Origin: Fonticella tunisiensis
Lineage (GTDB): Bacteria > Bacillota > Clostridia > Clostridiales > Caloramatoraceae
Direction: 5' to 3'
DNA: 64,000 bases
Assembly (NCBI RefSeq): GCF_004364155.1
Contig: NZ_SOAZ01000007.1
Coordinates: forward strand, 1 to 64,000
The notes under the pieces are model-generated. The model searched no databases. It saw nothing but the letters and a program-made list of their open reading frames with translations, and had not been told where the DNA came from. Below, in pieces: positions 8,804-61,426 of this stretch. Positions within the stretch are counted from its first letter, which is position 1. Each line of letters starts with the position of its first letter. Both the position numbers and the translations under genes were made by a program.

Positions 8804-8821
8804 TTGTTTTCCTCCTCTATT

Positions 8822-8921: not shown

Positions 8922-9121
8922 TTATCACCAATTCATAATTATTGGTATATGTAGCTTTAAAATTGAATTTTGTATACGTATAACTGTAAAGTAATGTTTT
9001 ACAAACATCTCCTTTCTTTATATCATTAGCTACAAAATATAAAATACTACAAAATATTATAATACGCAAATATGTTATCCTATACTAACAATAAATATAA
9101 AATGAGTTATATTATTCCTGA

Positions 9122-10705: not shown

Positions 10706-10987
10706 ATATAATACCTCCTGATCAACTAACATTTCACATAATATTCTGCCCAGAATTTATTTTTATACTATTTTAAATAGTACACCCTTTTCAATGGATA
10801 TTTCAAGCTTTTTATTTGAAATTTTACATATTTCATCTAAAAAGATATTGATTAGACATTATTTATCAACATACCATCTGCGATTTAAATCAACAATGAG
10901 CATAATAAAAACAAAGAATTCTTTAAGAGCGATGGATATACCTAATAATTCCCTGGGAAGAAATGAGTGGGAAATTAAAAAAGGAAA

Positions 10988-20241: not shown

Positions 20242-21183
20242 CTATTCTATATCCTCAAAGGGATTGAAATCTTTAACGGTCATTTCATCCTTTAGCTCTA
20301 CTTTGTCACAATAAGGAATAAATACCTGTTGATCCTGTAATAATTTTATCTTCAGGTATAGTACAACCTTCTCAGTCAAGGTCTGGAATGTGTGTTCATC
20401 CGGGTTTTTGTTAACTTTAGTTTGATCCCTTTCAATGTCCTCTTCACAGATTTTGGCGAAAACTAATTCGCAGCGTACTTCTTCATTGAAGAATTCGAAA
20501 TCCTGAAAATCCTGCTCAGTGCTTTTTTTGCCTAAAAGCTCAGGATCAAATATTTCTACCTCAGTTTGAGGGAATCTTTTAACAAATTGTGGGTATACTA
20601 CGAATGGCACCTCTGTTACACATTCAAAAGGAACTTTTACTGTTGTATGTTTTATTCTTCCATTAATACCATTTTCATCAGCACATTCTACCGTAGAATA
20701 CTCGATATTTTTTCTAAGAAATCCTCTAAGGAACAGTTTATTGGTTTTTGGTATGAGCTTACACTGCGTTAAAAATACATTCTTTTTTATTCTCTTAATA
20801 TCTAAAGCTGGTTCCTCCAGTTTAATTGATGATTCAAAGTCAATCTGTACAGTAAATTCAGATAATACTACAGGAACTTTGACAACTGCCGGTCCTTTTA
20901 TCGGGCATGGATACTGAGGCCAGTTCTTGCACTCTCCAAGAGTTCTTGGTTTTATAATTTTTGCATCACATGAAACAGGCTTATGGCAAGATTCATTAGC
21001 GACAGCAAACTCCCCCATTGTTCTTTCTGGCTCTGAAGCCTTTGAACTGGATGCAGCAGGACAGGAGCGATCATTGGTGCTCTCAGTTTCATCGAAATTT
21101 TTTTGGCCCATTATTTTCACACTGAGTATATCGGATTTACCAATATAGTCATTGGTGCTGGCTATTTCATTCATGTTTTCCAT
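20242..21183 (-). CDS. SPOCS/DUF3794-like spore-surface protein, paralogue 1
   Basis: 313 residues. A variable, Ser/Glu-rich N-terminal 90 residues precede a core of about 220 residues shared with three neighbours: LGECKNWP, then KVPVVLSEFTVQIDF, KLEEPALDIKRIKKNVF, LTQCKLIPKT, RKNIEYSTVEC, TTVKVPFECVT and a C-terminal FQTLTEKVVLYLKIKLLQDQ. The VPVVLxE/LTQCKLIP/RKNIEY pattern is that of DUF3794/SPOCS-like proteins linked to spore coat or exosporium of clostridia. No signal peptide or membrane segment is seen, as expected for mother-cell proteins that assemble on the spore. Start chosen with AGGAGGATG nearby. Exact function unknown; a structural spore role is inferred. Confidence 0.8.
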   Translation of the reverse strand: MENMNEIASTNDYIGKSDILSVKIMGQKNFDETESTNDRSCPAASSSKASEPERTMGEFAVANESCHKPVSCDAKIIKPRTLGECKNWPQYPCPIKGPAVVKVPVVLSEFTVQIDFESSIKLEEPALDIKRIKKNVFLTQCKLIPKTNKLFLRGFLRKNIEYSTVECADENGINGRIKHTTVKVPFECVTEVPFVVYPQFVKRFPQTEVEIFDPELLGKKSTEQDFQDFEFFNEEVRCELVFAKICEEDIERDQTKVNKNPDEHTFQTLTEKVVLYLKIKLLQDQQVFIPYCDKVELKDEMTVKDFNPFEDIE

Positions 21184-21399
21184 AATAACATCCTCCTATT
21201 ATTATGATATTTATCTCTTTAATATTAATATATTTCTTTTCCGACAAAATGTTCCAATAACATTGAAGATATTTTTATTTTTAAGTAATTTAGTCGAATT
21301 ATGCTATCCAGATTTCAATTAAAGATTTTTTTCATACCCATATTTTTAATACTTAAGCTTTAATAGCACTGCACATTAAGTAATTTCCATAATTTATGC

Positions 21400-21463
21400 A
21401 TAAAAAGCAGGGCGGTTCATTCTTCCACCCTTTTAACAGGATAAGTGGAGGATAATCCGCCCC
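21400..21463 (-). terminator. terminator after SPOCS paralogue 2
   Basis: A long interrupted stem (GGGCGG with CCGCCC, plus inner CCAC/GTGG) is followed on the minus strand by CTGCTTTTTATG. Confidence 0.8.
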
Positions 21464-21474
21464 AAATGAATTAG

Positions 21475-22269
21475 CTATTCTTCATTGGCTTCTTTAACAT
21501 CTTCCATTGGGTCATATTCTTTAAATGTCATGGCATCCTTATTATCTTTTAAATCGCAGTAAGGAATGAAAACCTGCTGATCCTGTAATAATTTAATCTT
21601 TAACAACAAAACAACTTTTTCGGTAAAGGTCTGGAAGGTATTTTCAAATGAATCACCTGATACAGGAGTTTGCCTGCCTTCTTCTTCCTCTTCGGCAATT
21701 TTAGCCCATACTAATTCACAGCGAACTTCTTCATTGAAGGGCTCGAAATCCAGGAAAGTCTGCTCATCTGTTCTCTTACCTAAAAGCTCAGGATCAAATA
21801 TTTCTACTTCTTTTTGTGGTTCCCTTTTTGTAAATTCTGGGTAGCGAAGGAACTTTACATCTGTGCAGCATTCGAATGGAACTTTGCAAGTTGAATGCCT
21901 TATAGCTCCACTGATGCAAGAATTATCAGGCCTGCATTCTACCGTAGAATATTCAATATTTTTTCTAATAAATCCTTCAATCAAGAGCTTGTTAGTTTTG
22001 GGTATAAGCTTGCATTGTGTTAAATATACATGCTTTTTAATTCTCTTGATGTCGAGGGCAGGTTCTTCCAGCCTAACATCTGATTTAATACAGATCTGAA
22101 CAACAAATTCAGAAAGCACTACGGGAATCTTTGCTACTAATGGTCCGTAATTTGGTCTTGGGTACTTCGGCCAGTTTCTGCATTCCCCAAGGGTTCTGTT
22201 GTCTATAACATCCGCCTCGCATTCTGGCAAAGGATTTATTTTATCAGGTTTTGAGCACATATTCGACAT
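21475..22269 (-). CDS. SPOCS/DUF3794-like spore-surface protein, paralogue 2
   Basis: 264 residues, with a short N-terminal region followed by the shared core (LGECRNWPKYP, AKIPVVLSEFVVQICI, LTQCKLIPKT, RKNIEYSTVEC, FNEEVRCELVWAKI, VLLLKIKLLQDQQVFIPYC). Of the four paralogues it has the shortest pre-core segment apart from paralogue 4, and an acidic C-terminus (EDVKEANEE). AGGAGGTTTC precedes the ATG by several bases. It has its own strong terminator, so each paralogue seems to be a separate unit. Conserved cysteines (LTQC, VEC, PFEC, VRCEL) could cross-link in an insoluble coat layer. Confidence 0.8.
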   Translation of the reverse strand: MSNMCSKPDKINPLPECEADVIDNRTLGECRNWPKYPRPNYGPLVAKIPVVLSEFVVQICIKSDVRLEEPALDIKRIKKHVYLTQCKLIPKTNKLLIEGFIRKNIEYSTVECRPDNSCISGAIRHSTCKVPFECCTDVKFLRYPEFTKREPQKEVEIFDPELLGKRTDEQTFLDFEPFNEEVRCELVWAKIAEEEEEGRQTPVSGDSFENTFQTFTEKVVLLLKIKLLQDQQVFIPYCDLKDNKDAMTFKEYDPMEDVKEANEE

Positions 22270-22493
22270 ATTTGAAACCTCCTATTTTTGCATATTAGGG
22301 GGGATTTTTTCTTACACATCCCTATTCCTAGTAACATTATATTTGTTTTTCTTAAAATGGTTACAAATATTGTAGAATATTTATATTTTTTGTTGAATTA
22401 TGTCAAATTTCATAATATAACTAAATATATCTAACTTGTGGCTTAGTTGTATTTATTTTTGTTAATAGTTATACCGTTCTGAGTTAATAAATA

Positions 22494-22554
22494 AACAGGA
22501 TATTTTATTCCCCCCTTCTTTATAGAAAGGTAAGAATACAATATCCTGTTTCAT
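22494..22554. terminator. long-loop hairpin near the dispersed repeat
   Basis: AAACAGGATATT pairs with AATATCCTGTTT around a loop of about 37 bases with a weak internal stem. It lies beyond a dispersed element (22572-22746) downstream of paralogue 3. It may be that gene's original terminator, now separated from it. Confidence 0.5.
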
Positions 22555-22571
22555 CATTCTTTCCATCAATC

Positions 22572-22746
22572 TTAAATTAACCTGTTGTGCTAGCTCAGGA
22601 GCTGAACGGAGATAAAAAATATATGAAATTCACATTTTTCAAATCCCGAGCCTTAGAACTTCTTTGCTAAGCGTGCCGGTGAATGAAATATATTTTTTAT
22701 CGCAGCGTCGATCTGTAAATTTATCTAGCGCAACGAGTTAAATTAA
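22572..22746 (+). repeat. dispersed foldback element, short-form copy B
   Basis: The left end TTAAATTAACCTGTTGTGCT is inverted at the right end (AGCGCAACGAGTTAAATTAA). Inside are the arms GATAAAAAATATATGAAATT and GAATGAAATATATTTTTTAT. Relative to the long copies, about 95 bases between CACA and TTTTTCAAATC are missing. The 60.9 kb copy lacks the same segment, so this is a defined subtype. Confidence 0.85.
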
Positions 22747-22789
22747 CCTATTGTATCAGCTTTTTTAAAGCGGACAATTAGAACTCCTG
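22738..22789 (+). repeat. fragment of the dispersed element abutting copy B
   Basis: Immediately after copy B a second left-end-like sequence (TTAAATTAACCTATTGTATC) is followed by AAAGCGGACAATTAGAAC. This matches AAAGCGGGCAACTAGAAG in the long copies. It is diverged and lacks the remaining arms. Confidence 0.55.
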
Positions 22790-22827
22790 AACATATATTT
22801 CCTAAAATATGTTCATAGCCGATAAAA

Positions 22828-23748
22828 CTATGTGCTATTGGATAAACTGGATTTATCTTTATCTAAAGGAGTGCTGCAAATCCCGTATATGTTTACCTGC
22901 TGATTCTGCAATAGCTTTAACTTTAAAAACAATACCATTTTCTCAACAATGGTCTGAAAAGTATGTTCATGTGCAAGCTCATCATTAACCTGCGCTTCAT
23001 CCTGCTTTATGTCCGATTCAAAAATTTTTACCTTCTCTATTTCACAAAACACTTTTTCTGTAAAATATTCACAATCAACAAATTCTTCCATCGAAATATT
23101 TTTATCGATAAAGTCACTCTTAAGCAGTTCTTCCTCTATGCGGGGATTTTTATTAGGTACATCGGGATAAACGTTAAAGTTCACCTTTGTAACACAATCA
23201 AAGGGAATATGCACCGTTGTATGTTTTATATTCCCACTTATGCTTTTTTCGCCTATACATTTAACAGCAGCATATTCTATATTCTTTCTGATAATTCCAC
23301 TTATAAACAGTTTGCTGGCTTCAGTTACAAGCTTACATTGAGTTAAATGTACATTCTTCTTAACACGCTTAATTTCAAGTGCCGGCTCCTCCAATTTTAT
23401 TATGGATTCAATGTTAATTTGAACCCAAAACTCCGCCAGGACAACAGGAATTTTAGCTACCAAAAAGCCATCCTTTCCAAGGGGCTTAACTGAAACGTTG
23501 CCGCATTCTACAAGGGTTTTTGCTTCACATACCTTTCCTTTATATTCATTTTTCTCCTCACTACCCTGATTATCTTCGCTTTTATTATCCGTTAAAAGAA
23601 CCTCACTTTTTAAACCATCAATACCGATTTCATCAAGATCATCTACTTTTTCAATTCTTTCCTTCTCATTATCAATTGATTTAGAACGGGTCTGTTCATT
23701 AATAAGACTTTTCTTGTCATTATGTTTTCTATGCTTATGTTTTCCCAT
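22828..23748 (-). CDS. SPOCS/DUF3794-like spore-surface protein, diverged paralogue 3
   Basis: 306 residues. The N-terminal 80 residues are highly charged, starting with a Lys/His-rich stretch (KHKHRKHNDKKS) and then an acidic region, quite unlike the other three. The core is recognisable but diverged: KIPVVLAEFWVQINI, KLEEPALEIKRVKKNVH, LTQCKLVTEASKL, RKNIEYAAVKC, TTVHIPFDCVTKVNF and FQTIVEKMVLFLKLKLLQNQQV. The usual LGECxNWP is replaced by LVECGNVS. The basic start could bind acidic partners or nucleic acid. The dispersed element copy B and a hairpin follow the gene. Confidence 0.78.
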   Translation of the reverse strand: MGKHKHRKHNDKKSLINEQTRSKSIDNEKERIEKVDDLDEIGIDGLKSEVLLTDNKSEDNQGSEEKNEYKGKVCEAKTLVECGNVSVKPLGKDGFLVAKIPVVLAEFWVQINIESIIKLEEPALEIKRVKKNVHLTQCKLVTEASKLFISGIIRKNIEYAAVKCIGEKSISGNIKHTTVHIPFDCVTKVNFNVYPDVPNKNPRIEEELLKSDFIDKNISMEEFVDCEYFTEKVFCEIEKVKIFESDIKQDEAQVNDELAHEHTFQTIVEKMVLFLKLKLLQNQQVNIYGICSTPLDKDKSSLSNST

Positions 23749-23885
23749 CCTTATTTCCCCCTACCATTTTTAAACCAAGGCATCAATAGTTTGCTGCAAA
23801 ATTCTACTATTACTATAATATGCATAATATATACCATATGAAACTAATTTTTATAAGTATTTAAGTAATTCCTATATTAAAATAC

Positions 23886-23926
23886 AAAAAAAACTCAAAT
23901 CCTTCTATATAGATTTGAGTTTTTAT
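23886..23926. terminator. bidirectional terminator after SPOCS paralogue 4
   Basis: AAAACTCAAATC pairs with GATTTGAGTTTT around a 10-base loop, with A and T runs on either side. Confidence 0.88.
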
Positions 23927-23986
23927 AAATTTTAATCTCTATTTATGCCCCAATTCAGATATTAAATAGCTTCACTCTAATTATAT

Positions 23987-24793
23987 CTATTCCTTATTTA
24001 CTTCGTCTATATCCTCAAAGGGATTAAACTCCTTTACAAAATCACCTTCCTGCATATCAGAATCAACTGCATCATACCCGCTAACCTTTACCTGTTGATC
24101 CTGCAATAATTTTAGCTTTAAATAAAGAACAACCTTTTCCGTTAGTATTTGGAAGGTATGCTCATCAGGGCTATCCTTAATAGCTGTCTGGTCTTCTTCG
24201 ATATCTTCTTCGCATATTTTGGCATAAACAAGCTCGCATCGAACCTCTTCGTTAAATATCTCAAAATCCTGAAAATCCTGTTCGGTGGCTTTTCTACCGA
24301 GCAGCTCCGGGTCAAACATCTCTATCTCTGATTGAGGCATTCTCGGATCAAACTTTGGATAAATCATAAAGGGTACCCGCGTAACACATTCAAAGGGGAC
24401 CTTTACTGTTGTATGTTTTATTTCACCATTAATTCCATTCTTGTCAGCACACTGTACTGTGGAATATTCAATATTCTTTCTTATAAATCCTCTAATAAAG
24501 AGTTTATCGGTCTTCGGTATAAGCTTACATTGGGTGAGGTACACATTTTTTTTAATTCTTTTAATCTCCAGGGCAGGCTCTTCCAGCTTAATTACTGATT
24601 CAAAGTCAATTTGAACTGTGAATTCTGATAAAACTACTGGAACCTTGATTACTACAGGTCCTTTTGTAGCCCGGGGATATTTAGGCCAGTTTTTGCATTC
24701 TCCAAGGGTTCTTGGTTTGATGAGCTTTGCATTACATGAAGAAGAGCTATACTTTAAATCATTTACGTCAGTGCAATCATTAACATTTCCCAT
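23987..24793 (-). CDS. SPOCS/DUF3794-like spore-surface protein, paralogue 4
   Basis: 268 residues, the closest relative of paralogue 1: LIKPRTLGECKNWPKYP, KVPVVLSEFTVQIDFES, YLTQCKLIPKTDKL, RKNIEYSTVQC, VKVPFECVTRVPFMIYP, EIEMFDPELLGRK, EEVRCELVYAKI, HTFQILTEKVVLYLKLK and LLQDQQV, ending with EFNPFEDIDEVNKE, also like paralogue 1. A recent tandem duplication is likely. AGGAGGTTGC lies before the ATG. It is divergently placed from the G2-domain gene across 463 bp of AT-rich DNA. A spore-surface role is inferred from family and from the other sporulation genes in the window. Confidence 0.8.
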   Translation of the reverse strand: MGNVNDCTDVNDLKYSSSSCNAKLIKPRTLGECKNWPKYPRATKGPVVIKVPVVLSEFTVQIDFESVIKLEEPALEIKRIKKNVYLTQCKLIPKTDKLFIRGFIRKNIEYSTVQCADKNGINGEIKHTTVKVPFECVTRVPFMIYPKFDPRMPQSEIEMFDPELLGRKATEQDFQDFEIFNEEVRCELVYAKICEEDIEEDQTAIKDSPDEHTFQILTEKVVLYLKLKLLQDQQVKVSGYDAVDSDMQEGDFVKEFNPFEDIDEVNKE

Positions 24794-28160: not shown

Positions 28161-28293
28161 CTTCTCTTAAGGCTTTTGGCTCTTCAGGCTGGTAATAACC
28201 AAATACACATGCTGAAGCTGATGTTGAGAGAGCGAAAAGTGTAAACAATCCTGCTCCTAAAGTTACCATCAGCTTAGTAAATCTTTTTCCCAT
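28156..28293 (-). CDS. agrD: AgrD-type cyclic (thio)lactone autoinducer peptide precursor
   Basis: 45 residues. An amphipathic N-terminal helix (MGKRFTKLMVTLGAGL) leads to a hydrophobic stretch. The peptide core ACVFGYY follows, with Cys29 as the expected ring-forming residue, and then the conserved clostridial AgrD tail YQPEEPKAL. The start at 28293 is chosen because GGGAGGGAG precedes it; a longer frame from 28338 lies inside agrB. It overlaps the 3' end of agrB by about 20 bases. AgrB would cut the tail and close the ring between the Cys thiol and a carboxyl a few residues on. The mature peptide size is not predictable from sequence alone. Confidence 0.9.
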   Translation of the reverse strand: MGKRFTKLMVTLGAGLFTLFALSTSASACVFGYYQPEEPKALREE

Positions 28294-28960
28294 TCTTCTC
28301 CCTCCCCATAAACAAAAATGCTTTTCTAAAAAGCTCATCTATTGCTCCAAGCATTAAATGCCCTGTTTTCGTAAGGGTAAAAGCCTGCCAGATTACACCT
28401 ATGTATATACAAAGGGCACAGGCTAATACAATTTGTATATCGTATATGTAATAAAGGGCATTTAATACTGCGGCAGCCAAGAACAAAAGATTAAGCATAC
28501 ATAAAGATTTTCTTTTCAATCTTCTCCTAGTTTCAGCTTTTTTTATTGGCTTTGCCGCACTATCCACCGGTGCCAATTTACTAACTATAAAATAGGATAG
28601 TGCAAAGCTTATTATTCCTGCTAAAGCAATTTGATAGAAATCCATAAAGCTAACTGCTGTATTTACAAGTATCCCAAGCAAGGTGGAAATTACTGCTCCA
28701 ATGAGGGCACACCGATTGGGTGAGCTTGAATGGGCTCCTCCAGAATACTTTCTTAAAAGGCTTATCGATAGGGATATGACAAGCGCCTGTACAAGTACAT
28801 TAAATATAATTCCAAAGGTAATTACCAATAATATGGACCAAACTGTTTGTATAAAAGCAAAGGCACCGTAGGCAATGATTTCCTCTCGTTCCTTATCCAT
28901 GTTTAAAGTTGAAGATATTCCATATGCAAGTGCCTTTGAGACTCTTTCAATTAGAAACAT
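28274..28960 (-). CDS. agrB: AgrB-type peptide-processing membrane endopeptidase
   Basis: About 228 residues from the start at 28960 (MFLIERV), preceded by AGAGGGGAC; an upstream in-frame ATG at 29005 has no site. The conserved RKYSGGAHSSSPNRCAL segment holds the catalytic His (GGAH) and Cys of the AgrB family. Five to six membrane segments follow the cytoplasmic N-terminus. It processes the AgrD precursor encoded by the overlapping downstream gene. Its start overlaps the end of an upstream small membrane protein gene (28947), giving a tight three-gene unit. No AgrA response regulator or full AgrC kinase is encoded in the window. Confidence 0.93.
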   Translation of the reverse strand: MFLIERVSKALAYGISSTLNMDKEREEIIAYGAFAFIQTVWSILLVITFGIIFNVLVQALVISLSISLLRKYSGGAHSSSPNRCALIGAVISTLLGILVNTAVSFMDFYQIALAGIISFALSYFIVSKLAPVDSAAKPIKKAETRRRLKRKSLCMLNLLFLAAAVLNALYYIYDIQIVLACALCIYIGVIWQAFTLTKTGHLMLGAIDELFRKAFLFMGREKNGKKIY

Positions 28961-29423
28961 GACTTTGTCCCCTCTTTGGTTTATTGAATACCCTGTAAAG
29001 CACAATAGTGGTTAAAGCAAAAAATATTAGGGAAGGTGAACTATATAAAAGTTTCATGCCAGGATCCTTAAAAACGTCTTCAAGCCTTATATTAAGGAAA
29101 CTATTCAGTATAAAAACATTGAGCCATTCCGATAAAAACATAATTATAGTTGAAACCAATGCAGCTGATACGGCTTTAATAGTTTCAATTTTATTAATTG
29201 CTGAAGTTAATAAAATATGGATCATAATGATTATTATTGTGTGAACCCCAAAATGTATTGGCAGCATCCTGACTAAATAAATGGTTATCCCGAGAAGTAA
29301 AGCCGATATACAATATCTATCCCTATCAATGGCTTTCCTGCCTAATGCGTAGGAGGCAAGAATGAAGGCAAAGCCCTCAGGTATAGTTCTCAAGAAAAGC
29401 TCCAGCATCGACAATTTCAACAT
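28947..29423 (-). CDS. small membrane protein resembling the sensor portion of AgrC-type kinases
   Basis: 158 residues with about five hydrophobic segments (residues 8-25, 38-55, 58-75, 82-103, 128-148) and no soluble domain. The overall pattern (LFLRTIPEGFAFILASYALG and the LPIHFGVHTI segment) is like the N-terminal transmembrane sensor half of AgrC-type receptors, but the histidine kinase half is absent. It overlaps agrB by about 14 bases and so is co-translated. It could be a receptor, an immunity or export partner, or a maturation factor. The resemblance to AgrC is my reading of the pattern, not a search result. Confidence 0.6.
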   Translation of the reverse strand: MLKLSMLELFLRTIPEGFAFILASYALGRKAIDRDRYCISALLLGITIYLVRMLPIHFGVHTIIIIMIHILLTSAINKIETIKAVSAALVSTIIMFLSEWLNVFILNSFLNIRLEDVFKDPGMKLLYSSPSLIFFALTTIVLYRVFNKPKRGQSHVSN

Positions 29424-36231: not shown

Positions 36232-36564
36232 TAGCTCCGTATGAAACAAAATTCACCACAATATTATGAAAACAGTTTCTAAATTAATCTGTCGTTCCAG
36301 TTCAAGAACTAAAGCGGAGATAAAAAATATATGAAATTCACATAAAGCGGGCAACTAGAAGTTCTTGGCGAAGGGATGCAGAAAAATCCTAGAACTTTCG
36401 TTTGTTTGAGTTGGGCGAGTTTAACGAAAGTTCTTGATTTTTCAAATCCCGAGCCTTAGAACTTCTTTGTTAAGCGTACTAGTGAATGAAATATATTTTT
36501 TATCGCAGCGTCGGTCTGTATATGCTTTCCACTTATAATCCAATGAACTTTTCAGAGTAGCATA
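36232..36564 (+). repeat. dispersed foldback element, long-form copy C
   Basis: About 330 bp. Order: TAGCTCCGTATGAAACAAAA, arm GGAGATAAAAAATATATG, AACTAGAAGTTCTTGGCG, CCTAGAACTTTCGTTTG, AACGAAAGTTCTTGATTT, CCTTAGAACTTCTTTG, arm GAATGAAATATATTTTTTAT and TTTTCAGAGTAGCA. It is nearly identical to copy E2 at 61.1 kb except at the right end. It lies between the HAD gene and the glucan synthase gene. Confidence 0.88.
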
Positions 36565-36601
36565 TCTCCAAAATACAAATGAGGCAGGAAAATCCTGCCT
36601 T

Positions 36602-39600
36602 TTAACCTAATACAACTTCAACGCTGTGGAATTTTTCATCATCCACAAGCTTTATCGTCTTATCACCTAGGACAACTCCATCCATTTTAACTTCCTTAAC
36701 ACCACGGTTTACCCCAGCCGGGTTGCTTACATTTATTATATAATCAGTCTTGTTGTATTTATATCTTATCTTAAATTCCTTCCAGTAGGATGGAATGCAT
36801 GGGTCTATTATGAGCGAACTTCCCTTCTTTTTAAATCCCAGTATTTCTTCAAGACCTACTTTATACATCCAGCCGGAGGATCCGGTGTACCAGGTCCATC
36901 CACCCCTTCCAACGTGGGGTTCTACAGCATATACATCTGCCGCCATAACATAGGGCTCAACCTTGTACCTTGCACAATCAAGATCAGTCATAGTGTGATT
37001 TATCGGATTTATTAAACTGAAAAGGCTGTAGGCCTTATTGCCATAACCCATCCTGGCGAAGGCATATACTACCCATGTTGCTGCATGGGTATATTGTCCT
37101 CCATTCTCCCTTACTCCAGGAACATAGCCTTTAATATATCCAGGGGAAAGATCCCCTTTGTCAAAGGGAGGTGTAAACAGTTTTATTAGACCCTCATCCT
37201 CCATAACAAGATAGTTTTCAACGGAATTCATAGCCTTTTCAGCCCTCTTATGATTTCCAGCACCGGAAATAACTGCCCAGCTCTGTGCAATGGAATCTAT
37301 TTTACATTCGCTGTTTATTGATGAACCAAGGGGCTTTCCATCATCAAAGTAGGCCCTTAGATACCATTCTCCATCCCATGCGTTTTTCTCAATTGAATCA
37401 GCAATATATTGAACTATTTCTTCATATCTTTCGGCCTTTTCTTTATCATTTGCTATTTTGCATAGTGGAATAAATTTCTTTAATGTATGGCAAATAAACC
37501 ATCCAAGCCATATGCTCTCACCTCTGCCTTTATTGCCAACGGTATTCATACCATCGTTCCAGTCCCCTGATCCCATAAGAGGAATTCCATGTTCACCAAA
37601 CTTTAATCCCCTCTCCAGGGCTCTTATACAATGCTCATAAACAGTTGATTTTTGTTCCGATACTTTAGGGACACCATACCTTTCATCCTCCTTTTCACCA
37701 AGGGGGGCATCCTCAAGGTATGGAACCTCAAGGTACAATATATCTGTATCGCCAGTTTTTTCTACATACTCTGCAGTAACATAGGGAAGCCAGAGCAAAT
37801 CATCGGAAAACTTTGTTCTTATTCCTTTTTCACCTGCACCTGGGTGCCACCAGTGTTGCACATCCCCCTCAACAAATTGATGAGCGCAGTGGAGGATGAT
37901 CTGGTTTTTAGCTATTTCAGGATAGATATTCAAAAGGCTCATTACATCCTGAAGCTGATCCCTAAAACCATAGGCACCGCCTGATTGATAGAAGGCGGAT
38001 CTCGCCCATATTCTACATGATAGGGTCTGGTATAAAAGCCATGTATTCATTATAATGTTAAACCTATCATCGGGGGTTGCTATCTGCAGCCTGTTAAGAA
38101 GCTCATCCCAGACACCCTTAGCCTCTTCAAGGGCAGCTTTACACTTGGTTAAATCTTTATACTTCATAATAAGCTGAGTTAGATTATCCATGCTTTTAAC
38201 CTGGCCCAACATGAACACTAATTCCTGCTCATCATCCTCCTTTATACTAAGGGATGTTTGAATAACGCAGCATGGATCAAAACCTGTTCCGTATTGTTTA
38301 CTAAGGCCTTCATACCCTAGTGCCTTAGGGCTTTTAAAGTCTCCAGCGTTTCCTACAAATTCAAGCCTGTTTCCTGTAAAGCTTTTAACCTCAAGGGATG
38401 AGGAGATAAAGGCAATTCTGCCAGGAAAATCTGAATTATAGGAATTTTGTACTATAAAGGCGCCCAGGTTTTCATCAAATTGTGTTATAATATGTTGCTG
38501 AGTAATCTGGTCTGTAACTCCAAGAACAGGCCTTATGTAGTAATATAGTGAAAGCCTTCTCTCTGTACCCGAAACGTTTTTAAGCTTTACGAGTGAGAGC
38601 TTGACAGGTTCATCCCTTGTAACAAAAACAGTAAGCTGCTGCTCTATCCCATGGCTTGAATGTAAAAACCTCGAGTAGCCCAATCCATGGCTTATGACAT
38701 AACCTTCCTTTTCACGCACTGGAAGGGGAGTAATTGTCCATATCTCTCCAGTTTCATCGTCCCTTATGTATATTATTTCGCCTGGAGGGTCAGATACAGG
38801 GTCATTTGACCATGGAGTAAGCTTGTTTTCCCTGCTGTTTTCAGACCAGGTAAACCCACCACCTGTATCAGTTACTGTAAAACCAAAGTTTTTGTTTGAT
38901 ATAACGTTGATCCATGGTGCAGGGGTAAAAATATTATCTTTAAGGATAATTGTATATTCCTTATTGTCATTGTCAAACCCACCATAACCGTTGTAATATA
39001 AGAGCGGCGAATACATAAGGTTATCCGGGTAATGGCAGGGTATTTTACTTGCCTTAAGTATATTTTGGGCCTCCTTCGCTTCAAAATAGGTTAATTGTTT
39101 TTTAATGCTCCCCTCATCAGCGTTTATAATAATTCTCGATGCTGAATAGAGTAAAATTCTATCCTCTTCAGGCATTAAAGCTGCATTTCTTACGAATATA
39201 CCTCCAGCCCTGTCAATAAGCTCCCTTCCATGGCCTGCTGAAACTAAATCCCTTATGAGGTTTAGAAGTGGTTCAAAATAATCGCTTTCATCTTGATTTA
39301 ATATCACAAGGTCCACCTTTAATCCCCTTGAACGCCAGTATTCATGGGCCCTTAGCATGGTTTTTACACCCTCTATACTCTCAGCTTTGCTTATAGTTAC
39401 CAGAACAATAGGTAAGTCTCCTGATATTCCATATGCCCATAGGCCAGGCTGACCCTTTCTATTCCTCATGATATATTCTTCATACCTTTTCTTAACCGGA
39501 CTTATAAAAAGTATGTGTGATATTAAAGAGTTAAATATTTTAGCGTCGGACTCCTTAAAGTTAAAGTAGGAATTATCTATATTTCCCCTTAGATAAGCGA

Positions 39601-42600
39601 GTTCAAAACTTCTCTCAGCATTTAAAGGGTCTGAGTATTTTTTGCACAGCTCTATTATAGAATTTCTATTTTCAGCAGCTCCTGTGGTATAGTATAAAAC
39701 TGATGATTTTCCGGGAGCTATTTTAACTTTTTTTCTTATACTGAATATAGGATCCAGCACTGCCCCAACGGTATCCGTAAGTGGATGGGACATTCCCCTG
39801 GGATCCTTAAGGTTTTGCCCTCTTCCTATAAACTTATACCTGTCCGTTTCAAAATCCAGATCGCCTATGCTTTCCACATCAGCGGAAAGGGTATGAAACG
39901 CCCATAGTGTTTTTTTACCTTCTTCCCTCGGCCTCCTCGATGCAATGATGCTGCTAAAATCTCTTAAGGCTTCAGTTCTTACAAAAAGATTGTTGAAGGC
40001 AGGGTGTGCTATATCCGCCATATGTGGTGAAAGTACGGGCTCCAAATAGCTGGTACATTCAATTGTTGCATCTTCAGAACCATGATTGAATATAGTAAGC
40101 TTCCTGACCTCGCAGTTATCCTCAGGTGATACACACACCTCCATATGGGTTTCTATCGAACCATCAATCCGTTCAAACTTGGCTTTATCGCTGGAGAAAA
40201 TAACCTTATATCTATCAGGTATGGCGTTTACAGGTTCAATGGTTGACGACCACACTTTATTTGAATTTACATCCCTTAAATATATAAAGGTTCCATATTT
40301 TTTAGATGATAAATCCTCTCGCCATCTGGTAACCATGATATCCCCAAGTTTGCTGTAGGAATAGCCAAAATTGGAAACCATGATGGAGTACGTTCCATTT
40401 GAGAGTAAATGGCAGACAGGGATAGGAGACTCGGGCAAACCTAATTCCCTTACATAATTAAACCCTTCGTATTCCTCAGTCTTAAATGGAACAACATCCT
40501 CTTTGATTTCCTTTGTTATTATGGCTCTTACAGGTATCCTTTCCTGAAGTAAAAACTCACCTGCACGTACTGCCGGGTCGGAATGAAATCTTTTTACCAG
40601 TATATTGTTGTTAAAATAGTTATTAAGGGCTGTTATAATCATACCCTGGTGATGGGCCATGAAGCTTTTTACAACCGCATATTTCTGACTGCGGGGCATT
40701 CTTTCCGGTGTAAAATCAACGGATTCATAAAATCCATACTTTCCCTCAAGATTATATTCTGTAAGCTTATGCAGGTTTAATAGAGCATCCTTTGGACTAA
40801 ATGGCAGAGCGAGTATGGTTGAATATGGTGATATAACCATATCCTTTACAAGCCCTCTTTTAAGCCCTAAATCAGGCACTCCAAAGGCTTTATACTGATA
40901 ATTTAAAATGTGGTCAAAACCATGGTAGCCTGACTCCGAGGTTCCCCATGGCACTTTTCTGCTTCTGCCATATTTGATCTGTGCATTTATAACTGTAGAG
41001 TAAGTTTCACCTAACAGAGTATTTTTGTAAGTTCTCATTATTATAGGCGGCATCAGATATTCAAACATCGTTCCGGTCCATGAGACAAGGCTTCTATAGC
41101 CATCAATATCAACCAGAGACCTTCCAAGCCTTGACCAGTGTGAAGGTGAAACCTCCCTTTTTGCTATGGCAAGATAGCTTGTAATCCTGGCCTCTGAGGC
41201 AAGAAGGTCATAATATGAATTTATAAGTTTGTCATTTGAAACATCATATCCGATTGAAAAAAGTTCTCTCTTTTTGTCATAGAGGGACTCAAATTTCATG
41301 TCAGCGATTAGTTTCTCTATTCTAAATATCAATGAATCTATAAGGCTTATCTGATTTTGAACTTTCTCAACATCATCATCTGCATTATTTTTATGCAGTA
41401 GTTTTTCATGGTGTTCCTTTAACCCTTCCTTTAAAGTTATGTAATACCCCATTAAATTGCCGCTGTCAACTGTTGATATAAATTTCGGCATTAATACTTC
41501 AAGGGTTCTTGTATCATACCAGTTATACAGATGCCCGTTCCATTTTTCCATCCTTTCAATGGTACCTATGGTTTTATCAAGTTTTTCAAGCATTTCTGAT
41601 GTCGTTATATACCCAAGATCCCTTGCAGATAGAATAGCCATAAGTAGAAACCCTATATTTGTAGGGGAAGTTCTATGTGCAACCCTCTCAACGGGCTCCT
41701 CCTGATAATTATCAACCGGCAAATAGTTGTTCTCCTCATTTGCAAACTCCTCATAAAAATTCCACGTTTTCCTCGAAATTCTTCTGAGGAATTCGTTATC
41801 TTCATCGGACAATTCAATTTTAGGTTCTGCTGCAGGCTGGCTTATATAATATGCAACAGCTGGAGACAGGGCCCAGACGATTAATAGGGGTATAATCGCA
41901 ATAAGGTTTTCCCTTCTAAATACAAAGGCTACAGCATATAAAACAGCTGATTCGATTAAAACAGGATACATCCTGTTAATATAACCTTTAAAATCATTAG
42001 ACATATTTTTTTCAACTTCTGCAGCGGTAACCCATTCCAGCAAGTTGCGTTTTGATACAAAAACCCTGTATAAAGACTTTAAAGCTGCATCCATCATAAT
42101 ATAGCTGTGATAGGGTAAAAAAATGAAGTTAAGCAGGCATTGATAGAACGCAGCTTTAAACCCATAAATAAGGTCTCCATTTACCCTTATTCCAGGACAG
42201 TTGTAATATTTTAATGCAAGATAATCAGCAAGGTTTAAAAGTATAGGTAAAAAAACAGTTAAAACAGCAAAACTGAGCCACAACGAAGGTGTTCCGGGAA
42301 GGAATAGAATTCCTGATATTATTACCAGCATTAACGATGTTGAAACAAGGCTTCTTCTAAGGTTATCAAAAAGCTTCCACCTTGAAAGGAGGCTTATGGG
42401 ATTTTTTATTCTTTTGCCATATCTGTTCTTTATATATGGGAAAAGCCAGCGTATTGTCTGCCAGTCTCCCCTTACCCACCTGTGAAGTCTCATAATGTAG
42501 GAACTGTATTTTTCTGGATAGCCATCAATGAGCTCTATATCAGTTGCAAGCCCTGTTCTTAAATAGCTTCCCTCAATAAGATCATGGCTTAAAAGGGTAT

Positions 42601-44686
42601 TTTCAGGAATAGCTTCATCAAGGGCCTTTATGAATATATCGATGTCGTAAATTCCTTTCCCTGTAAAAATGCCTTCATGGAACAAATCCTGATACACATC
42701 TGATACAGCAGCTGTATATGGGTCAATGCCGCCTGAACCCGCAAATATCCTTGTGAACAGGGATTTATTTGTGCTTACTATATTGATTCCGATTCTGGGC
42801 TGAATTAACCCATACCCTTCTATGACTATTCCCTTTTTATCATCAAATACAGCTTTATTAAGGGGGTGAGATATGGCCCCAATTAAAGACCTGGCCCTGC
42901 CTATTGGAAGAATGGTGTCTGCATCAAGGGTAATTACATATTTAGCCCTCTTCAGGTTTTCAATATTTCCAGTGATTGTTGAGAAAGTAGTGTTTTTATC
43001 ACCCTTAATGAGCCTGTTAAACTCTAATACTGCACCTCTTTTTCTGTCCCATCCCATCCATCTTCCCTGCCTGTCGTTATAAATCCTTCTCCTGCATAAA
43101 AAGTAAAATTTATTGTCCCCATATTTTCTATTGAGTTCCTCAATCATATCCCTTGCCGTATTTAGAATATCCTCATCTTCATCATTAAATTCACTGCCGC
43201 TGTCCTTTAAATCGCCTACAAGTGCAAAATATATATTATCTTCATTGTTTGCCATGTAAGTTACTTCAAGGTTTCTTATAAGCTCTATGACTCTTTTCAC
43301 ATTTGGAAGTATTGTAGGAACTATTATTATAGTAGTACATTCTTCAGGTATTCCATTTCTAAGCTCAAGTTTAGGTATAAAATCGGGCGTTTTTAAATGG
43401 GTGATAATCCAGTTTGTAATTGTTACAGCTATCTCACTTGAAGGAATCAGGGCTATAATCAAAGTCAACGCTGCAATCAACAAAGGGGCCTTAACAGCAC
43501 TTGTATACGAATATAAAGCCAATCCCAGGGATAGAATAGCTGTAATTATGGCTACAGGTAAAACGTACACAGCAAGAACATTCTTCTTTAATCCCGAAGG
43601 ATTTTTTTCAATGTCCCTTATCAGATAAGTCCTGCCCTTTCCAGCAAGATAATATCCAACATGGGATGAAGCCTTGGAGATATCCTCATATTTTAACGTA
43701 CAATCAAGTGCGGTTCTTGCAACCTGAATTTCAGAAACTTTATACCTTTCAGCGATTTTTTCTACCTGCCTCCTGTAATAGTTTCTTGATTCAAAATCCT
43801 GTTCCATGTAATAACCGGAAGGGTCTTTGCGCAGAATTCCTTCCACATGGGATAGTGACTCAAAAATCTCATTAAAATCAAGTGCCGATATAAGCCTGAG
43901 GCTCGTTATGCAGTTGCCTATGGAGATTTTCAGGGCGGCCTGTTCATTATGCTCATGTTTTATTACTTCTTCCATAGAAGTATTAAACTCGTGAAGCCTG
44001 TCATCTATATATCTAAAAAGTTCTTCTTCATTAACCTCAAGGCTCTTGATAAATCTTGAAAGCCTCTCAATATATGCATAATTTATCGAATCCATGCTGG
44101 TAAAGGTTTTTTTAATTTCGTTGAAAATTTCATTATGATCTTTACCTTTAAATCTTTCAACGTTACTCCATTCCTTATGAATGTCACTAATGACCTGGCA
44201 AATGTCTGCTATTTTTTCAACAAGGGCTATTCTAAGCATTGTTGATATGGACCACAGCTCAGCCATGGAAAGGGGCTCTATGGTCTGATATGCTTTTATA
44301 AACTCGATAATCTGCTTTTTATCTAATTTACCATCCGTATGATTTATAAGCTCAAGGCAAATTGCAAAGGTTCTTGGATAACCCTTAAGAGAACCGCTTT
44401 GAATCGTCCTGAGTTTTTTTAAAAATCTTCTGCTGCAATTTGCCATTATCCATTTAACCTGTTCTTCAATAATGTAGTAGTTGTCAAGAAGCCACTCTGA
44501 GGCAGGGCAGAGGGACTTGTTATTTTTTGCTCTATCTTTGAGAAATCTGTATACTCGTGATATCCTAATAAAATTATTATCCAATCTATTAAGAATTAGT
44601 TTATTATACTCTCCCTGCTTTGATACAATATGGTCTTTAGCTATATTTTTTCCATGGAGATAAAGTTCATGGGAGTTTAGAATCAT
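36602..44686 (-). CDS. cyclic beta-1,2-glucan synthase-like protein (GT84, glycoamylase and GH94 domains)
   Basis: About 2,694 residues, close to bacterial cyclic glucan synthases. A soluble N-terminal region precedes membrane segments at about 365-430. A GT84-type glycosyltransferase follows (LDADTILP near residue 587). More membrane segments lie at about 775-820 and 905-950. A glycoamylase (GH144-like) domain spans roughly 960-1400. Two beta-sandwich regions lead to a C-terminal GH94 phosphorylase-type domain with the catalytic GSGDWNDGMN near residue 2374 and VEPYVMAADVY further on. It should polymerise glucose from UDP-glucose into beta-1,2-glucan, cyclise it and trim it. Start at 44686 (MILNSHE) has AGAGGTGG upstream; a GTG 12 bases earlier does not. 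It is 20 bp after a nucleotidyltransferase gene, so the two are an operon. Confidence 0.9.
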   Translation of the reverse strand: MILNSHELYLHGKNIAKDHIVSKQGEYNKLILNRLDNNFIRISRVYRFLKDRAKNNKSLCPASEWLLDNYYIIEEQVKWIMANCSRRFLKKLRTIQSGSLKGYPRTFAICLELINHTDGKLDKKQIIEFIKAYQTIEPLSMAELWSISTMLRIALVEKIADICQVISDIHKEWSNVERFKGKDHNEIFNEIKKTFTSMDSINYAYIERLSRFIKSLEVNEEELFRYIDDRLHEFNTSMEEVIKHEHNEQAALKISIGNCITSLRLISALDFNEIFESLSHVEGILRKDPSGYYMEQDFESRNYYRRQVEKIAERYKVSEIQVARTALDCTLKYEDISKASSHVGYYLAGKGRTYLIRDIEKNPSGLKKNVLAVYVLPVAIITAILSLGLALYSYTSAVKAPLLIAALTLIIALIPSSEIAVTITNWIITHLKTPDFIPKLELRNGIPEECTTIIIVPTILPNVKRVIELIRNLEVTYMANNEDNIYFALVGDLKDSGSEFNDEDEDILNTARDMIEELNRKYGDNKFYFLCRRRIYNDRQGRWMGWDRKRGAVLEFNRLIKGDKNTTFSTITGNIENLKRAKYVITLDADTILPIGRARSLIGAISHPLNKAVFDDKKGIVIEGYGLIQPRIGINIVSTNKSLFTRIFAGSGGIDPYTAAVSDVYQDLFHEGIFTGKGIYDIDIFIKALDEAIPENTLLSHDLIEGSYLRTGLATDIELIDGYPEKYSSYIMRLHRWVRGDWQTIRWLFPYIKNRYGKRIKNPISLLSRWKLFDNLRRSLVSTSLMLVIISGILFLPGTPSLWLSFAVLTVFLPILLNLADYLALKYYNCPGIRVNGDLIYGFKAAFYQCLLNFIFLPYHSYIMMDAALKSLYRVFVSKRNLLEWVTAAEVEKNMSNDFKGYINRMYPVLIESAVLYAVAFVFRRENLIAIIPLLIVWALSPAVAYYISQPAAEPKIELSDEDNEFLRRISRKTWNFYEEFANEENNYLPVDNYQEEPVERVAHRTSPTNIGFLLMAILSARDLGYITTSEMLEKLDKTIGTIERMEKWNGHLYNWYDTRTLEVLMPKFISTVDSGNLMGYYITLKEGLKEHHEKLLHKNNADDDVEKVQNQISLIDSLIFRIEKLIADMKFESLYDKKRELFSIGYDVSNDKLINSYYDLLASEARITSYLAIAKREVSPSHWSRLGRSLVDIDGYRSLVSWTGTMFEYLMPPIIMRTYKNTLLGETYSTVINAQIKYGRSRKVPWGTSESGYHGFDHILNYQYKAFGVPDLGLKRGLVKDMVISPYSTILALPFSPKDALLNLHKLTEYNLEGKYGFYESVDFTPERMPRSQKYAVVKSFMAHHQGMIITALNNYFNNNILVKRFHSDPAVRAGEFLLQERIPVRAIITKEIKEDVVPFKTEEYEGFNYVRELGLPESPIPVCHLLSNGTYSIMVSNFGYSYSKLGDIMVTRWREDLSSKKYGTFIYLRDVNSNKVWSSTIEPVNAIPDRYKVIFSSDKAKFERIDGSIETHMEVCVSPEDNCEVRKLTIFNHGSEDATIECTSYLEPVLSPHMADIAHPAFNNLFVRTEALRDFSSIIASRRPREEGKKTLWAFHTLSADVESIGDLDFETDRYKFIGRGQNLKDPRGMSHPLTDTVGAVLDPIFSIRKKVKIAPGKSSVLYYTTGAAENRNSIIELCKKYSDPLNAERSFELAYLRGNIDNSYFNFKESDAKIFNSLISHILFISPVKKRYEEYIMRNRKGQPGLWAYGISGDLPIVLVTISKAESIEGVKTMLRAHEYWRSRGLKVDLVILNQDESDYFEPLLNLIRDLVSAGHGRELIDRAGGIFVRNAALMPEEDRILLYSASRIIINADEGSIKKQLTYFEAKEAQNILKASKIPCHYPDNLMYSPLLYYNGYGGFDNDNKEYTIILKDNIFTPAPWINVISNKNFGFTVTDTGGGFTWSENSRENKLTPWSNDPVSDPPGEIIYIRDDETGEIWTITPLPVREKEGYVISHGLGYSRFLHSSHGIEQQLTVFVTRDEPVKLSLVKLKNVSGTERRLSLYYYIRPVLGVTDQITQQHIITQFDENLGAFIVQNSYNSDFPGRIAFISSSLEVKSFTGNRLEFVGNAGDFKSPKALGYEGLSKQYGTGFDPCCVIQTSLSIKEDDEQELVFMLGQVKSMDNLTQLIMKYKDLTKCKAALEEAKGVWDELLNRLQIATPDDRFNIIMNTWLLYQTLSCRIWARSAFYQSGGAYGFRDQLQDVMSLLNIYPEIAKNQIILHCAHQFVEGDVQHWWHPGAGEKGIRTKFSDDLLWLPYVTAEYVEKTGDTDILYLEVPYLEDAPLGEKEDERYGVPKVSEQKSTVYEHCIRALERGLKFGEHGIPLMGSGDWNDGMNTVGNKGRGESIWLGWFICHTLKKFIPLCKIANDKEKAERYEEIVQYIADSIEKNAWDGEWYLRAYFDDGKPLGSSINSECKIDSIAQSWAVISGAGNHKRAEKAMNSVENYLVMEDEGLIKLFTPPFDKGDLSPGYIKGYVPGVRENGGQYTHAATWVVYAFARMGYGNKAYSLFSLINPINHTMTDLDCARYKVEPYVMAADVYAVEPHVGRGGWTWYTGSSGWMYKVGLEEILGFKKKGSSLIIDPCIPSYWKEFKIRYKYNKTDYIINVSNPAGVNRGVKEVKMDGVVLGDKTIKLVDDEKFHSVEVVLG

Positions 44687-44706
44687 ATGCTCTGCCACCT
44701 CTTAAA

Positions 44707-47160
44707 TCATTTATTATTTATTATAAAGTTTAGTTTTTCCTTTACCTGGGCTGATAGCTCCTCTGCAAACTCCTGACAATAGCCCTCCACAAATATATTA
44801 AGAACCGGGCGGCTATTGTCTGGAAGAATTAATGTCCAGCCCTTTTCGGTATTTAGTTTAATGCCCTCAAAAAGCTCAAGTACATCATTATTATTCTCAT
44901 CTATTAACTGCCTTATAACCCTTCCCCTTTCTTCAAAGCTGCAGTTAACTTCTTCCTTACACATATAAAACTCTGGAAGTTCATCAACAACGTCGAAAAG
45001 GGATAGAGAATTTTCTATCAAAAATTCAGTAATTTTACCTAATGCAAGTGCAGGATCGAAGTAAAGCAAATACTGAAGGTATACATACTCGTTTGTATCA
45101 CTCAAATAAAGTAGCTCGTTTATAAAATCAGAATTCGATGCTTTTGTCCTCTTTACCCTTGCATTAAAGGTCTTGGCCATTTCATCTATTATCATTGTAG
45201 ATGTATGTGGTATCACCAGGGTATTGGCATTTTGTTTAAGGGCAATTAAGGATGATAGTACTGAATACTTATCCCTGTCTATAACCCTCCCTTTATTATC
45301 GATTAAAACAATACCATCGGTGTCAATAATGGAACAAATAAGATAGGGCTTATCTTTGATGTCATTGACAATTTTTTTAGCATATTCCTCAAGGCTGGAG
45401 TGTTCTTTAAAGGTATAATCACAATGAACCCTGCAGCCAATATCTTTAAGGAATAAAGATACTATATCCAAAGCCCTATCATCAGCTGAAGCTAGAAATA
45501 TATCAGGAGATTTTGATTTTATCCTTTCTATATTCTTTATTTGTAATAAATTATTGAGCACATAAAGGGATGAGAAATTTTCAACCCTTATAATATTTCC
45601 AAGTTCAGAGGCATTACATCTTTCAAAATCCTGTCTGGTAAAAAGATGTTCAATTTTCTTTTCTTTATTACGCTCTATATCCCCACCCTTAATATTTAAG
45701 AATTGTATATAAACCTTGTTACCGTTGTCACTGTCACTTGAGATGTGAATACCACCTCCGGCTTTATAAAACCTTGTGGCATATCTACTTACAAATAGGG
45801 GTATGTCATCTATGTTTATAACCTTAACTCCAGAGGACAATATTCCTGATGCCAGTGATTCCTTAATAATGCCTGCCGGCTTTGATCCATCTGAGCTTAT
45901 AACCAGTGGAAGATCTTTACCCATAACAGACGCAAAGGCCGAACCTAAAAGGGATGCAAATTCGGGAGTGACATCTATGTTGATTTCCCCACTAATTCCT
46001 CTATCATCAAATGTTAGTCTTGAATATTTTGTCCCCCATACAAGATTTTTATCAACGATTGAATGTTCCTTTATATATTTATTGGGCCAGATTTTTATAT
46101 CAGGCTTCACTATAACACAGCTTGATATGTTGGTTTCACTGCCGGTTACAGAACCTTCAAAAAAGTTTACAAGTTCCTTTGTAACCACCTTGCTGCAAAT
46201 TATTGAACCTCTGATCTGGTTGTTTCCACCAATTCTATTAAAGTCCCACAAAACGCTGTGTTTTATTGAGGTATTTTCGGATACAACAGTGTTATTTCCA
46301 ATGATTGAATATGGGCCTATGCTACTGCCGCTCTTGATTAAACAATTGCTGCCAATGTAACAGGGGCCCTTTAATACAGCATCATCGCTTATTATGGTAT
46401 TTCTTCCAACCCATATACCCTTCATCTTTTTTACAGCATCAAGTTCTACATCTACCTTTCCGTCAAGTACATCAAAATTAGTTTGCAAGTAGGAATTTAA
46501 ATCGCCTATATCACACCAGTATTCATCAGTTATGTATCCAAACATAGGAACGTTGTCATTTAATAGCCGTGGAAACAGGTCTCTGCTGAAATCGAAATTG
46601 TCACCCTTTTTATAGTAATTGAACACCTCCGGTTCAAGTATATATATGCCTGTATTTATAGTGTCGCTAAAGACCTCTCCCCATCCTGGCTTTTCAAGGA
46701 ATCTAATGATCCGTCCCTCACTGTTTGTTATTACAATTCCGAATTCAAGGGGAATGGATTCTCTCTTAAGTACAAGGGTAGCCTTTGAACCCTTGGATAT
46801 ATGATATTTGATGGCTTTTTTCAGATTAATATCGGTCAAAGCATCCCCGCTTATAACAATAAAAGTATCGTCTAAAAACTCCTTTGCATTTAAAACGCTT
46901 CCACCGGTTCCAAGGGGTTTTTCTTCTATGAAATAGGTTAAGTTAACTCCAAACCTTTTTCCATCTAAAAAGTAATCTACAATGGAATCAGGAAGGTAAT
47001 AAAGCGTTGAAGCGATGTCTTTTATATCATGTTTTTTTAAAAGATTAATAATATGTTCCATCGTAGGTTTTCCGGCTACAGGAACCATTGGCTTTGGAAT
47101 AGAGCATGTAAGGGGCCTTAGCCTTGTTCCTTCCCCACCGGCCATTATAACTGCCTTCAT
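44707..47160 (-). CDS. sugar-1-phosphate nucleotidyltransferase fused to hexapeptide and phosphomutase-like domains
   Basis: 817 residues. The N-terminal NTP-transferase domain (1-235) has MAGGEGTRLRPLTCSIPKPM and a typical GTGGSVLNA loop. A left-handed beta-helix lies at about 250-370 (IGSNCLIKSGSSIGPYSIIG). A phosphomannomutase-like region covers about 385-815. In that region the phospho-serine loop expected as TASHNP reads ISSDSDN, so mutase activity is doubtful. The family makes GDP-mannose or NDP-glucose. The glucan synthase gene 20 bp downstream needs UDP-glucose, so supply of a sugar nucleotide is likely, but the base and sugar are not determined. Start at 47160 has GAGAGGTG six bases before it; GTG at 47169 is the alternative. 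Confidence 0.9.
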   Translation of the reverse strand: MKAVIMAGGEGTRLRPLTCSIPKPMVPVAGKPTMEHIINLLKKHDIKDIASTLYYLPDSIVDYFLDGKRFGVNLTYFIEEKPLGTGGSVLNAKEFLDDTFIVISGDALTDINLKKAIKYHISKGSKATLVLKRESIPLEFGIVITNSEGRIIRFLEKPGWGEVFSDTINTGIYILEPEVFNYYKKGDNFDFSRDLFPRLLNDNVPMFGYITDEYWCDIGDLNSYLQTNFDVLDGKVDVELDAVKKMKGIWVGRNTIISDDAVLKGPCYIGSNCLIKSGSSIGPYSIIGNNTVVSENTSIKHSVLWDFNRIGGNNQIRGSIICSKVVTKELVNFFEGSVTGSETNISSCVIVKPDIKIWPNKYIKEHSIVDKNLVWGTKYSRLTFDDRGISGEINIDVTPEFASLLGSAFASVMGKDLPLVISSDGSKPAGIIKESLASGILSSGVKVINIDDIPLFVSRYATRFYKAGGGIHISSDSDNGNKVYIQFLNIKGGDIERNKEKKIEHLFTRQDFERCNASELGNIIRVENFSSLYVLNNLLQIKNIERIKSKSPDIFLASADDRALDIVSLFLKDIGCRVHCDYTFKEHSSLEEYAKKIVNDIKDKPYLICSIIDTDGIVLIDNKGRVIDRDKYSVLSSLIALKQNANTLVIPHTSTMIIDEMAKTFNARVKRTKASNSDFINELLYLSDTNEYVYLQYLLYFDPALALGKITEFLIENSLSLFDVVDELPEFYMCKEEVNCSFEERGRVIRQLIDENNNDVLELFEGIKLNTEKGWTLILPDNSRPVLNIFVEGYCQEFAEELSAQVKEKLNFIINNK

Positions 47161-47286
47161 ATTCGTCACCTCTCTTAAATTAGTTTTTATAAGTACAAAC
47201 TGTTTTATGCAATTTTGATATAGAATAAAATAAGAGTTCTTCCTAAGCGATGTTCAAAGGGTTCCTGTGAAGGGTAGGAAATGTTA

Positions 47287-47326
47287 TTAAAAAAGGTGGA
47301 AGACAAAACTGTCTTTCACCTTTTTG
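47287..47326 (-). terminator. terminator after the Crp/Fnr-type gene (inner hairpin)
   Basis: AAAAGGTGAAAGACA pairs with TGTCTTCCACCTTTT; TTTTTTAAT follows on the minus strand. Confidence 0.88.
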
Positions 47327-61081: not shown

Positions 61082-61426
61082 TAGCTCCGTATGAAACAAA
61101 ATTCACCACAATATTATGAAAACAGTTTCTAAATTAATCTGTCGTTCCAGTTCAAGAACTAAGCGGAGATAAAAAATATATGAAATTCACATAAAGCGGG
61201 CAACTAGAAGTTCTTGGCGAAGGGATGCAGAAAAATCCTAGAACTTTCGTTTGTTTGAGCTGGGCGAGTTTAACGAAAGTTCTTGATTTTCAAATCCCGA
61301 GCCTTAGAACTTCTTTGCAAAGCGTGCTGGTGAATGAAATATATTTTTTATCGCAGCGTCGACCTGTAAATTTATCTGCTTTTATTCCAACGGGCTTTTC
61401 AGAGTAGCACAACACGTTAATTTAAA
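61082..61426 (+). repeat. dispersed foldback element, long-form copy E2
   Basis: About 345 bp, nearly identical to copy C: TAGCTCCGTATGAAACAAAA, GGAGATAAAAAATATATG, AACTAGAAGTTCTTGGCG, CCTAGAACTTTCGTTTG, AACGAAAGTTCTTGATTT and GAATGAAATATATTTTTTAT. It has an intact right end, TAGCACAACACGTTAATTTA. E1 and E2 together are bounded by one left and one right terminal repeat, so one may have inserted into the other. Confidence 0.88.

Follow-up and report, generated by a model that had tools for sequence, protein, structure and literature searches.

A two-gene operon in Fonticella tunisiensis encodes a sugar nucleotidyltransferase and a predicted cyclic beta-1,2-glucan synthase

Agrobacterium and Brucella form cyclic beta-1,2-glucans with a giant enzyme, and work on these polymers has centred on the Rhizobiales, in which the glucan functions in the periplasm and during contact with the host. 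Thermoanaerobacter belongs to the Bacillota, and thus a cyclic beta-1,2-glucan synthase (CGS) from the Bacillota had already been studied before; one review labels this genus Gram-negative. In the Agrobacterium tumefaciens enzyme (Cgs), the aspartates and RW arginine of the GT84 domain, the tyrosine to which the primer glucan is attached, and the CY and GP residues have been defined (PMC10901819). For the cyclase domain of the Thermoanaerobacter italicus enzyme (TiCGS), the acid/base E1356, the nucleophile E1442, E1400 and H1536/H1537 have been described (PMC10834661). A literature search on CGS in Gram-positive bacteria, incomplete in its coverage, returned no title or abstract describing an operon of a nucleotidyltransferase and a CGS.

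Here we establish the gene structure, domain order, residue conservation, operon organisation and co-occurrence of such a pair. It lies in the window, the whole stretch of 64,000 nucleotides that was analysed. The window covers the first 64 kb of contig 7 in a draft genome of 3.1 Mb, where spoIVA is also present. The features of the locus are as follows.

36582..36600 (-): terminator-like hairpin directly 3' of the cgs stop, closing the two-gene unit; its position is the argument, the number of such hairpins in the region being not above shuffles
36602..44698 (-): cgs open reading frame, 2698 codons
36602..44686 (-): CGS, predicted 2694 aa (open reading frame, Pfam, alignment to Agrobacterium Cgs, residue table)
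36605..40480 (-): C-terminal GH94 phosphorylase part with a Rossmann-like insert region, residues about 1403-2694 (Pfam, alignment, residue table)
40480..41812 (-): GH189 cyclase domain, residues about 959-1402 (alignment to 8wy1 and 8rf0, residue table, insert lengths)
41807..44686 (-): N-terminal scaffold and GT84 (residues 1 to about 960), the latter flanked by hydrophobic helices (alignment to 8rf0, residue table, hydropathy)
44707..47169 (-): open reading frame of the partner
44707..47160 (-): partner, a fusion of NTP_transferase, left-handed beta-helix and mutase-like domains, 817 aa (Pfam, NCBIfam, solved-structure matches, motif alignment)
47290..47325 (strand unassigned): hairpin with a T-run and a 16-bp stem, between an upstream Crp-type regulator and the operon (folding and sequence)

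Both genes occupy the interval 36602-47160 given in the preliminary description, on the minus strand, and its upper end coincides with the start of the partner, an ATG at 47160 preceded by the ribosome-binding site AGAGAGGTGA. The cgs gene follows after 20 bp, and the Shine-Dalgarno sequence AGAGGTGG immediately 5' of the ATG at 44686 sets the predicted length of its product. The gene coordinates and domain matches are beyond chance. A palindromic repeat of about 130 bp with strong folding (z -6.0 for the first copy) occurs in two near-identical minus-strand copies at 36350-36480 and about 61200-61330, both intergenic and one of them just 3' of cgs; it is a dispersed hairpin element.

Several other loci in the window, all on the minus strand, deserve mention in their own right. 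Four tandem paralogues at 20242-24793 share a VKVPVVLSEFxVQI-like core, the first matching DUF7852, and may be related to the spore coat. A c-di-AMP riboswitch (8808-8931, 79 bits) stands directly upstream of a gene for a LysM/M23-type endopeptidase, named from its sequence (7832-8803), and an AgrB-type gene (PF04647) at 28274-29423 overlaps a small membrane-protein reading frame, possibly an agr-like signalling locus. In addition, a GH1 glycosidase is encoded at 9266-10732; a recent study connects a GH1 beta-glucosidase of Streptomyces with beta-1,2-glucan, which need not bear on the enzyme here.

The giant protein had been proposed to combine the GT84, glycoamylase-like and GH94 parts of NdvB/CGS, and we found all three. 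Pfam identified the Glycoamylase domain PF10091, which corresponds to the cyclase, as well as the GH94 supersandwich (E=2.7e-156) and GH94 catalytic (E=2.9e-136) domains. No Pfam model matched GT84, so that annotation by profiles recovered the cyclase and GH94 but not this domain, which was placed by alignment to the Agrobacterium Cgs structures 8rf9 and 8rf0. That alignment covers residues 11-1095 with 703 bits and 1119-2663 with 1245 bits; the cyclase domain scores 536 bits against the TiCGS cyclase domain 8wy1, and the C-terminus aligns with both Cgs and GH94 phosphorylases. The folds of the domains are thus settled by homology to solved structures, at the level of sequence. A simple hydropathy plot, which is not a topology prediction, peaks at residues 370-432, 782-830 and 922-953 (about six helices; open reading frame numbering, 4 above that from the ATG). 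The CGS is the sole carrier of PF10091 and of GH94 in the genome, and therefore no separate GH94-type beta-1,2-glucan phosphorylase was found there.

Counting from the ATG at 44686, we mapped 14 catalytic, catalysis-supporting and primer residues, and every one is present. The GT84 site retains the catalytic D588, D590 and D702 together with D492, R736 and R739; the putative primer tyrosine Y657 lies within a GIDPY motif. The cyclase carries the acid/base E1165, the nucleophile E1251, E1209, H1345 and H1346 (roles from TiCGS, PMC10834661), and the GH94 part has the catalytic acid D2375 and D2243. Among 86 full CGS sequences from many phyla, 13 of the 14 columns are strictly invariant, including that of Y657 (86/86), and D492 is kept in 85/86; the background level is 169 invariant columns out of 2631. 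Loss of catalytic residues from GT84 or GH94, which would have told against the preliminary description, was looked for by alignment, and none is missing. Because the alignment runs nearly end to end, apart from a shortened cyclase insert, and all the residues are in place, the protein very probably makes cyclic beta-1,2-glucan from UDP-glucose.

The second protein had been described as a sugar nucleotidyltransferase. Its active site is indeed intact, with both the nucleotidyltransferase signature and the metal-binding aspartates in place (GGEGTRLRPLT, GDALTD, FLEKP and WCDIGD are conserved, with minor variation, across 21 homologues), but it is not a plain enzyme of this type: Pfam finds NTP_transferase (E=1.2e-50), hexapeptide repeats and PGM_PMM_I. 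In this last domain, all four phosphohexomutase motifs (the TASHNP serine loop, DGDxDR metal loop, GEExGG sugar loop and RxSGTEP phosphate loop, visible in canonical form in the reference 1wqa) are degenerate in the partner and its homologues. We therefore reject a working bifunctional mutase; the C-terminal domain is probably no mutase and could have a regulatory or structural role. Of the solved structures, 8x7s, a UTP-glucose-1-phosphate uridylyltransferase, comes closest to the partner (233 bits), and the next nucleotidyltransferase reaches 140 bits. On the other hand, the best NCBIfam match is a mannose-1-phosphate guanylyltransferase at 225 bits, below the cut-off of 440, and the partner could thus make another nucleotide sugar. 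Sequence alone does not fix its substrate.

In 148 sampled genomes of the class, and with shared ancestry ignored, CGS is present in 36/40 carriers of the partner and in 22/108 other genomes; among spoIVA carriers the corresponding figures are 32/36 and 17/69. Reading positions from the class-wide searches for both proteins, we found the partner directly upstream of CGS, with both genes on one contig and strand, in 11 genomes that represent four families (the window's and ten in f23, f25 and f33). Within the family of the window's genome, the partner adjoins CGS in nearly every genome that has CGS, and it does so in Geosporobacter and Tepidibacter as well. In the CGS tree, the 16 adjacent cases fall within a single clade of 20 members (support 1.0), and this grouping suggests that the pair arose once. 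Three genomes of family f25 (loci L186, L188 and L191) have the order nucleotidyltransferase, CGS, phosphoglucomutase (with TASHNP) and phosphoglucose isomerase, the last two assigned by Pfam on L186 and by sequence clustering on the others. This order is a path from fructose-6-phosphate through UDP-glucose to glucan.

Taken together, we consider it likely, with a probability of about 0.8, that the two genes form an operon for cyclic beta-1,2-glucan in which the nucleotidyltransferase makes the donor. The most likely job of the partner, as judged from its genomic context, is the conversion of glucose-1-phosphate and UTP into UDP-glucose. By analogy with homologues, the GT84 domain would then glucosylate its own tyrosine Y657 and extend a beta-1,2-glucan chain in the cytoplasm, and the GH94 domain would trim this chain by phosphorolysis, returning glucose-1-phosphate that the partner might recharge. 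The GH189 domain would finally close the ring by transglycosylation, with E1165 as acid/base and E1251 as nucleophile, and release it. A more specific form of this proposal is tentative, and we put it somewhat short of even odds: the partner may be a dedicated non-GalU UDP-glucose pyrophosphorylase of clostridial cyclic glucan synthesis that recharges the GH94-derived glucose-1-phosphate and, where phosphoglucomutase and phosphoglucose isomerase join the operon, lets it lead from fructose-6-phosphate to the cyclic glucan.

Other sources of UDP-glucose bear on this question. A canonical GalU is encoded in the window's genome (C15:50381-51163, 412 bits), and the partner is therefore not needed for UDP-glucose here. 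No GalU above cut-off was found in several genomes that carry both partner and CGS, among them G228 (99% complete) and G179 (93% complete); in G153 it is partial or divergent, and G206 holds a fragment, possibly of a cut gene, with 82 positions matched in a 123-aa frame. Among 22 sampled CGS genomes that lack the partner, 14 also lack GalU, and hence further sources must exist. In a profile search with PF01704 (eukaryote-type UDPGP), the control itself matched nowhere. The absence of GalU as a general proof of partner function is weakened by these 14 genomes, by the fragment in G206 and by the lower completeness of G179. The claimed supply of the donor by the operon's nucleotidyltransferase is nevertheless supported by co-occurrence, by the operon with phosphoglucomutase and phosphoglucose isomerase, and by the genomes without GalU, with function read from these patterns.

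A rather unlikely alternative keeps the CGS as described but has the partner make a different nucleotide sugar, such as GDP-mannose, for another envelope polymer, the two genes being neighbours by history. The sub-cut-off guanylyltransferase match and the sufficiency of GalU in the window's genome fit this reading, as does a Clostridiaceae-like family (f2) in which the partner does not adjoin CGS. So does the fused architecture, which resembles ManC-annotated proteins. One of these, the ManC candidate SCO1388 of Streptomyces coelicolor, resembles the partner by description in having a nucleotidyltransferase and an additional phosphomannomutase domain; the study of SCO1388 established no enzymatic function for it and reports little effect of its disruption on GDP-mannose phenotypes (PMC5982138), and no link to CGS was noted. 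Against this alternative, the class-wide co-occurrence with CGS is strong even where the genes are apart, the partner shares an operon with phosphoglucomutase and phosphoglucose isomerase, and its closest solved relative uses glucose-1-phosphate. In addition, while some non-adjacent copies lie among housekeeping genes, others neighbour glucan genes, namely a GT4/GT5-type synthase with a glycogen-phosphorylase-like gene (L159) and a GH57 branching enzyme (L178).

The preliminary description had further suggested that the product may be a polymer of the wall, capsule or spore, which we regard as improbable. The organism has spoIVA, and spoIVA carriers have CGS somewhat more often than other genomes do, but the association is weak (spoIVA in 49/58 CGS genomes against 56/90 others, among the 148 of the class) and CGS also occurs in genomes without spoIVA and widely in Gram-negative phyla. 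At the loci examined, the conserved neighbours of CGS include no gene for sporulation or the wall, and no exporter was recognised beside it, several neighbours of about 600 aa being judged by N-terminal sequence only. Unlike the Agrobacterium system, the window's genome has no ChvA/NdvA exporter (TIGR01192) above cut-off, the best match reaching 341 against 585 bits; general ABC exporters exist, and export by one of them is possible. The suggestion is thus unsupported as to both destination and exporter.

Least probable of all is that, owing to its shortened 4-helix insert, the giant protein makes a beta-1,2-glucan that is linear or a product whose size is altered. The insert has about 31 residues against roughly 110-215 in most homologues, and in Agrobacterium Cgs this motif contributes to dimer contacts. 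Against this reading, the motif of Agrobacterium protrudes from the catalytic fold (PMC10901819), every cyclase catalytic residue is present in the window's protein, and short inserts go together with full catalytic sites in many Bacillales and other CGS; Bacillus, Paenibacillus, Alicyclobacillus and Pelosinus are among those with a short version.

Returning to the operon for cyclic beta-1,2-glucan, its synthase belongs to an ordinary and widespread enzyme family. CGS matches were found in 86/99 sampled genomes of the window's order, a few of them partial or weaker, and a cyclase-domain search found CGS in 58/148 sampled genomes of the class. Among the matches listed in a scan of named organisms are Bacillota, Proteobacteria, Acidobacteria, Planctomycetes, Nitrospira, Gemmatimonadetes, Verrucomicrobia and Bacteroidetes. 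CGS is so common in the Bacillota that its presence in a Gram-positive spore former is ordinary, which corrects the emphasis on Gram-negative bacteria in the preliminary description. In one genome of the window's family, CGS is split into two reading frames of 578 and 2293 aa by a frameshift, a stop or an assembly error (G018, L180, 3845-12476, minus strand).

In conclusion, since most sampled genomes of a Gram-positive spore-forming order carry a catalytically complete CGS, the polymer should be made without a periplasm like that of the Rhizobiales, and another explanation is needed for its basic role in the cell. Less explored than the synthase, the conserved partner offers a way to test how the supply of the donor is tied to chain trimming and synthesis. 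Compared with 8x7s and with mannose-1-phosphate guanylyltransferases, which align with its nucleotidyltransferase and beta-helix over about 320 residues, it has an extra C-terminal mutase-like domain that has lost the active-site motifs. TiCGS, the founding GH189 member, is the closest solved relative of the cyclase, sharing the catalytic pair, the supporting glutamate and the two histidines; the middle insert is shorter in the window's protein, and the TiCGS study covered the cyclase domain only (PMC10834661). Overall, Agrobacterium Cgs/ChvB (NdvB; 8rf0, 8rf9) has the same domain order nearly from end to end and shares the GT84, primer tyrosine, cyclase and GH94 residues, whereas the cyclase insert in the CGS of the window is shorter by about 100 residues, and this CGS is encoded by a spore-forming member of the Bacillota.
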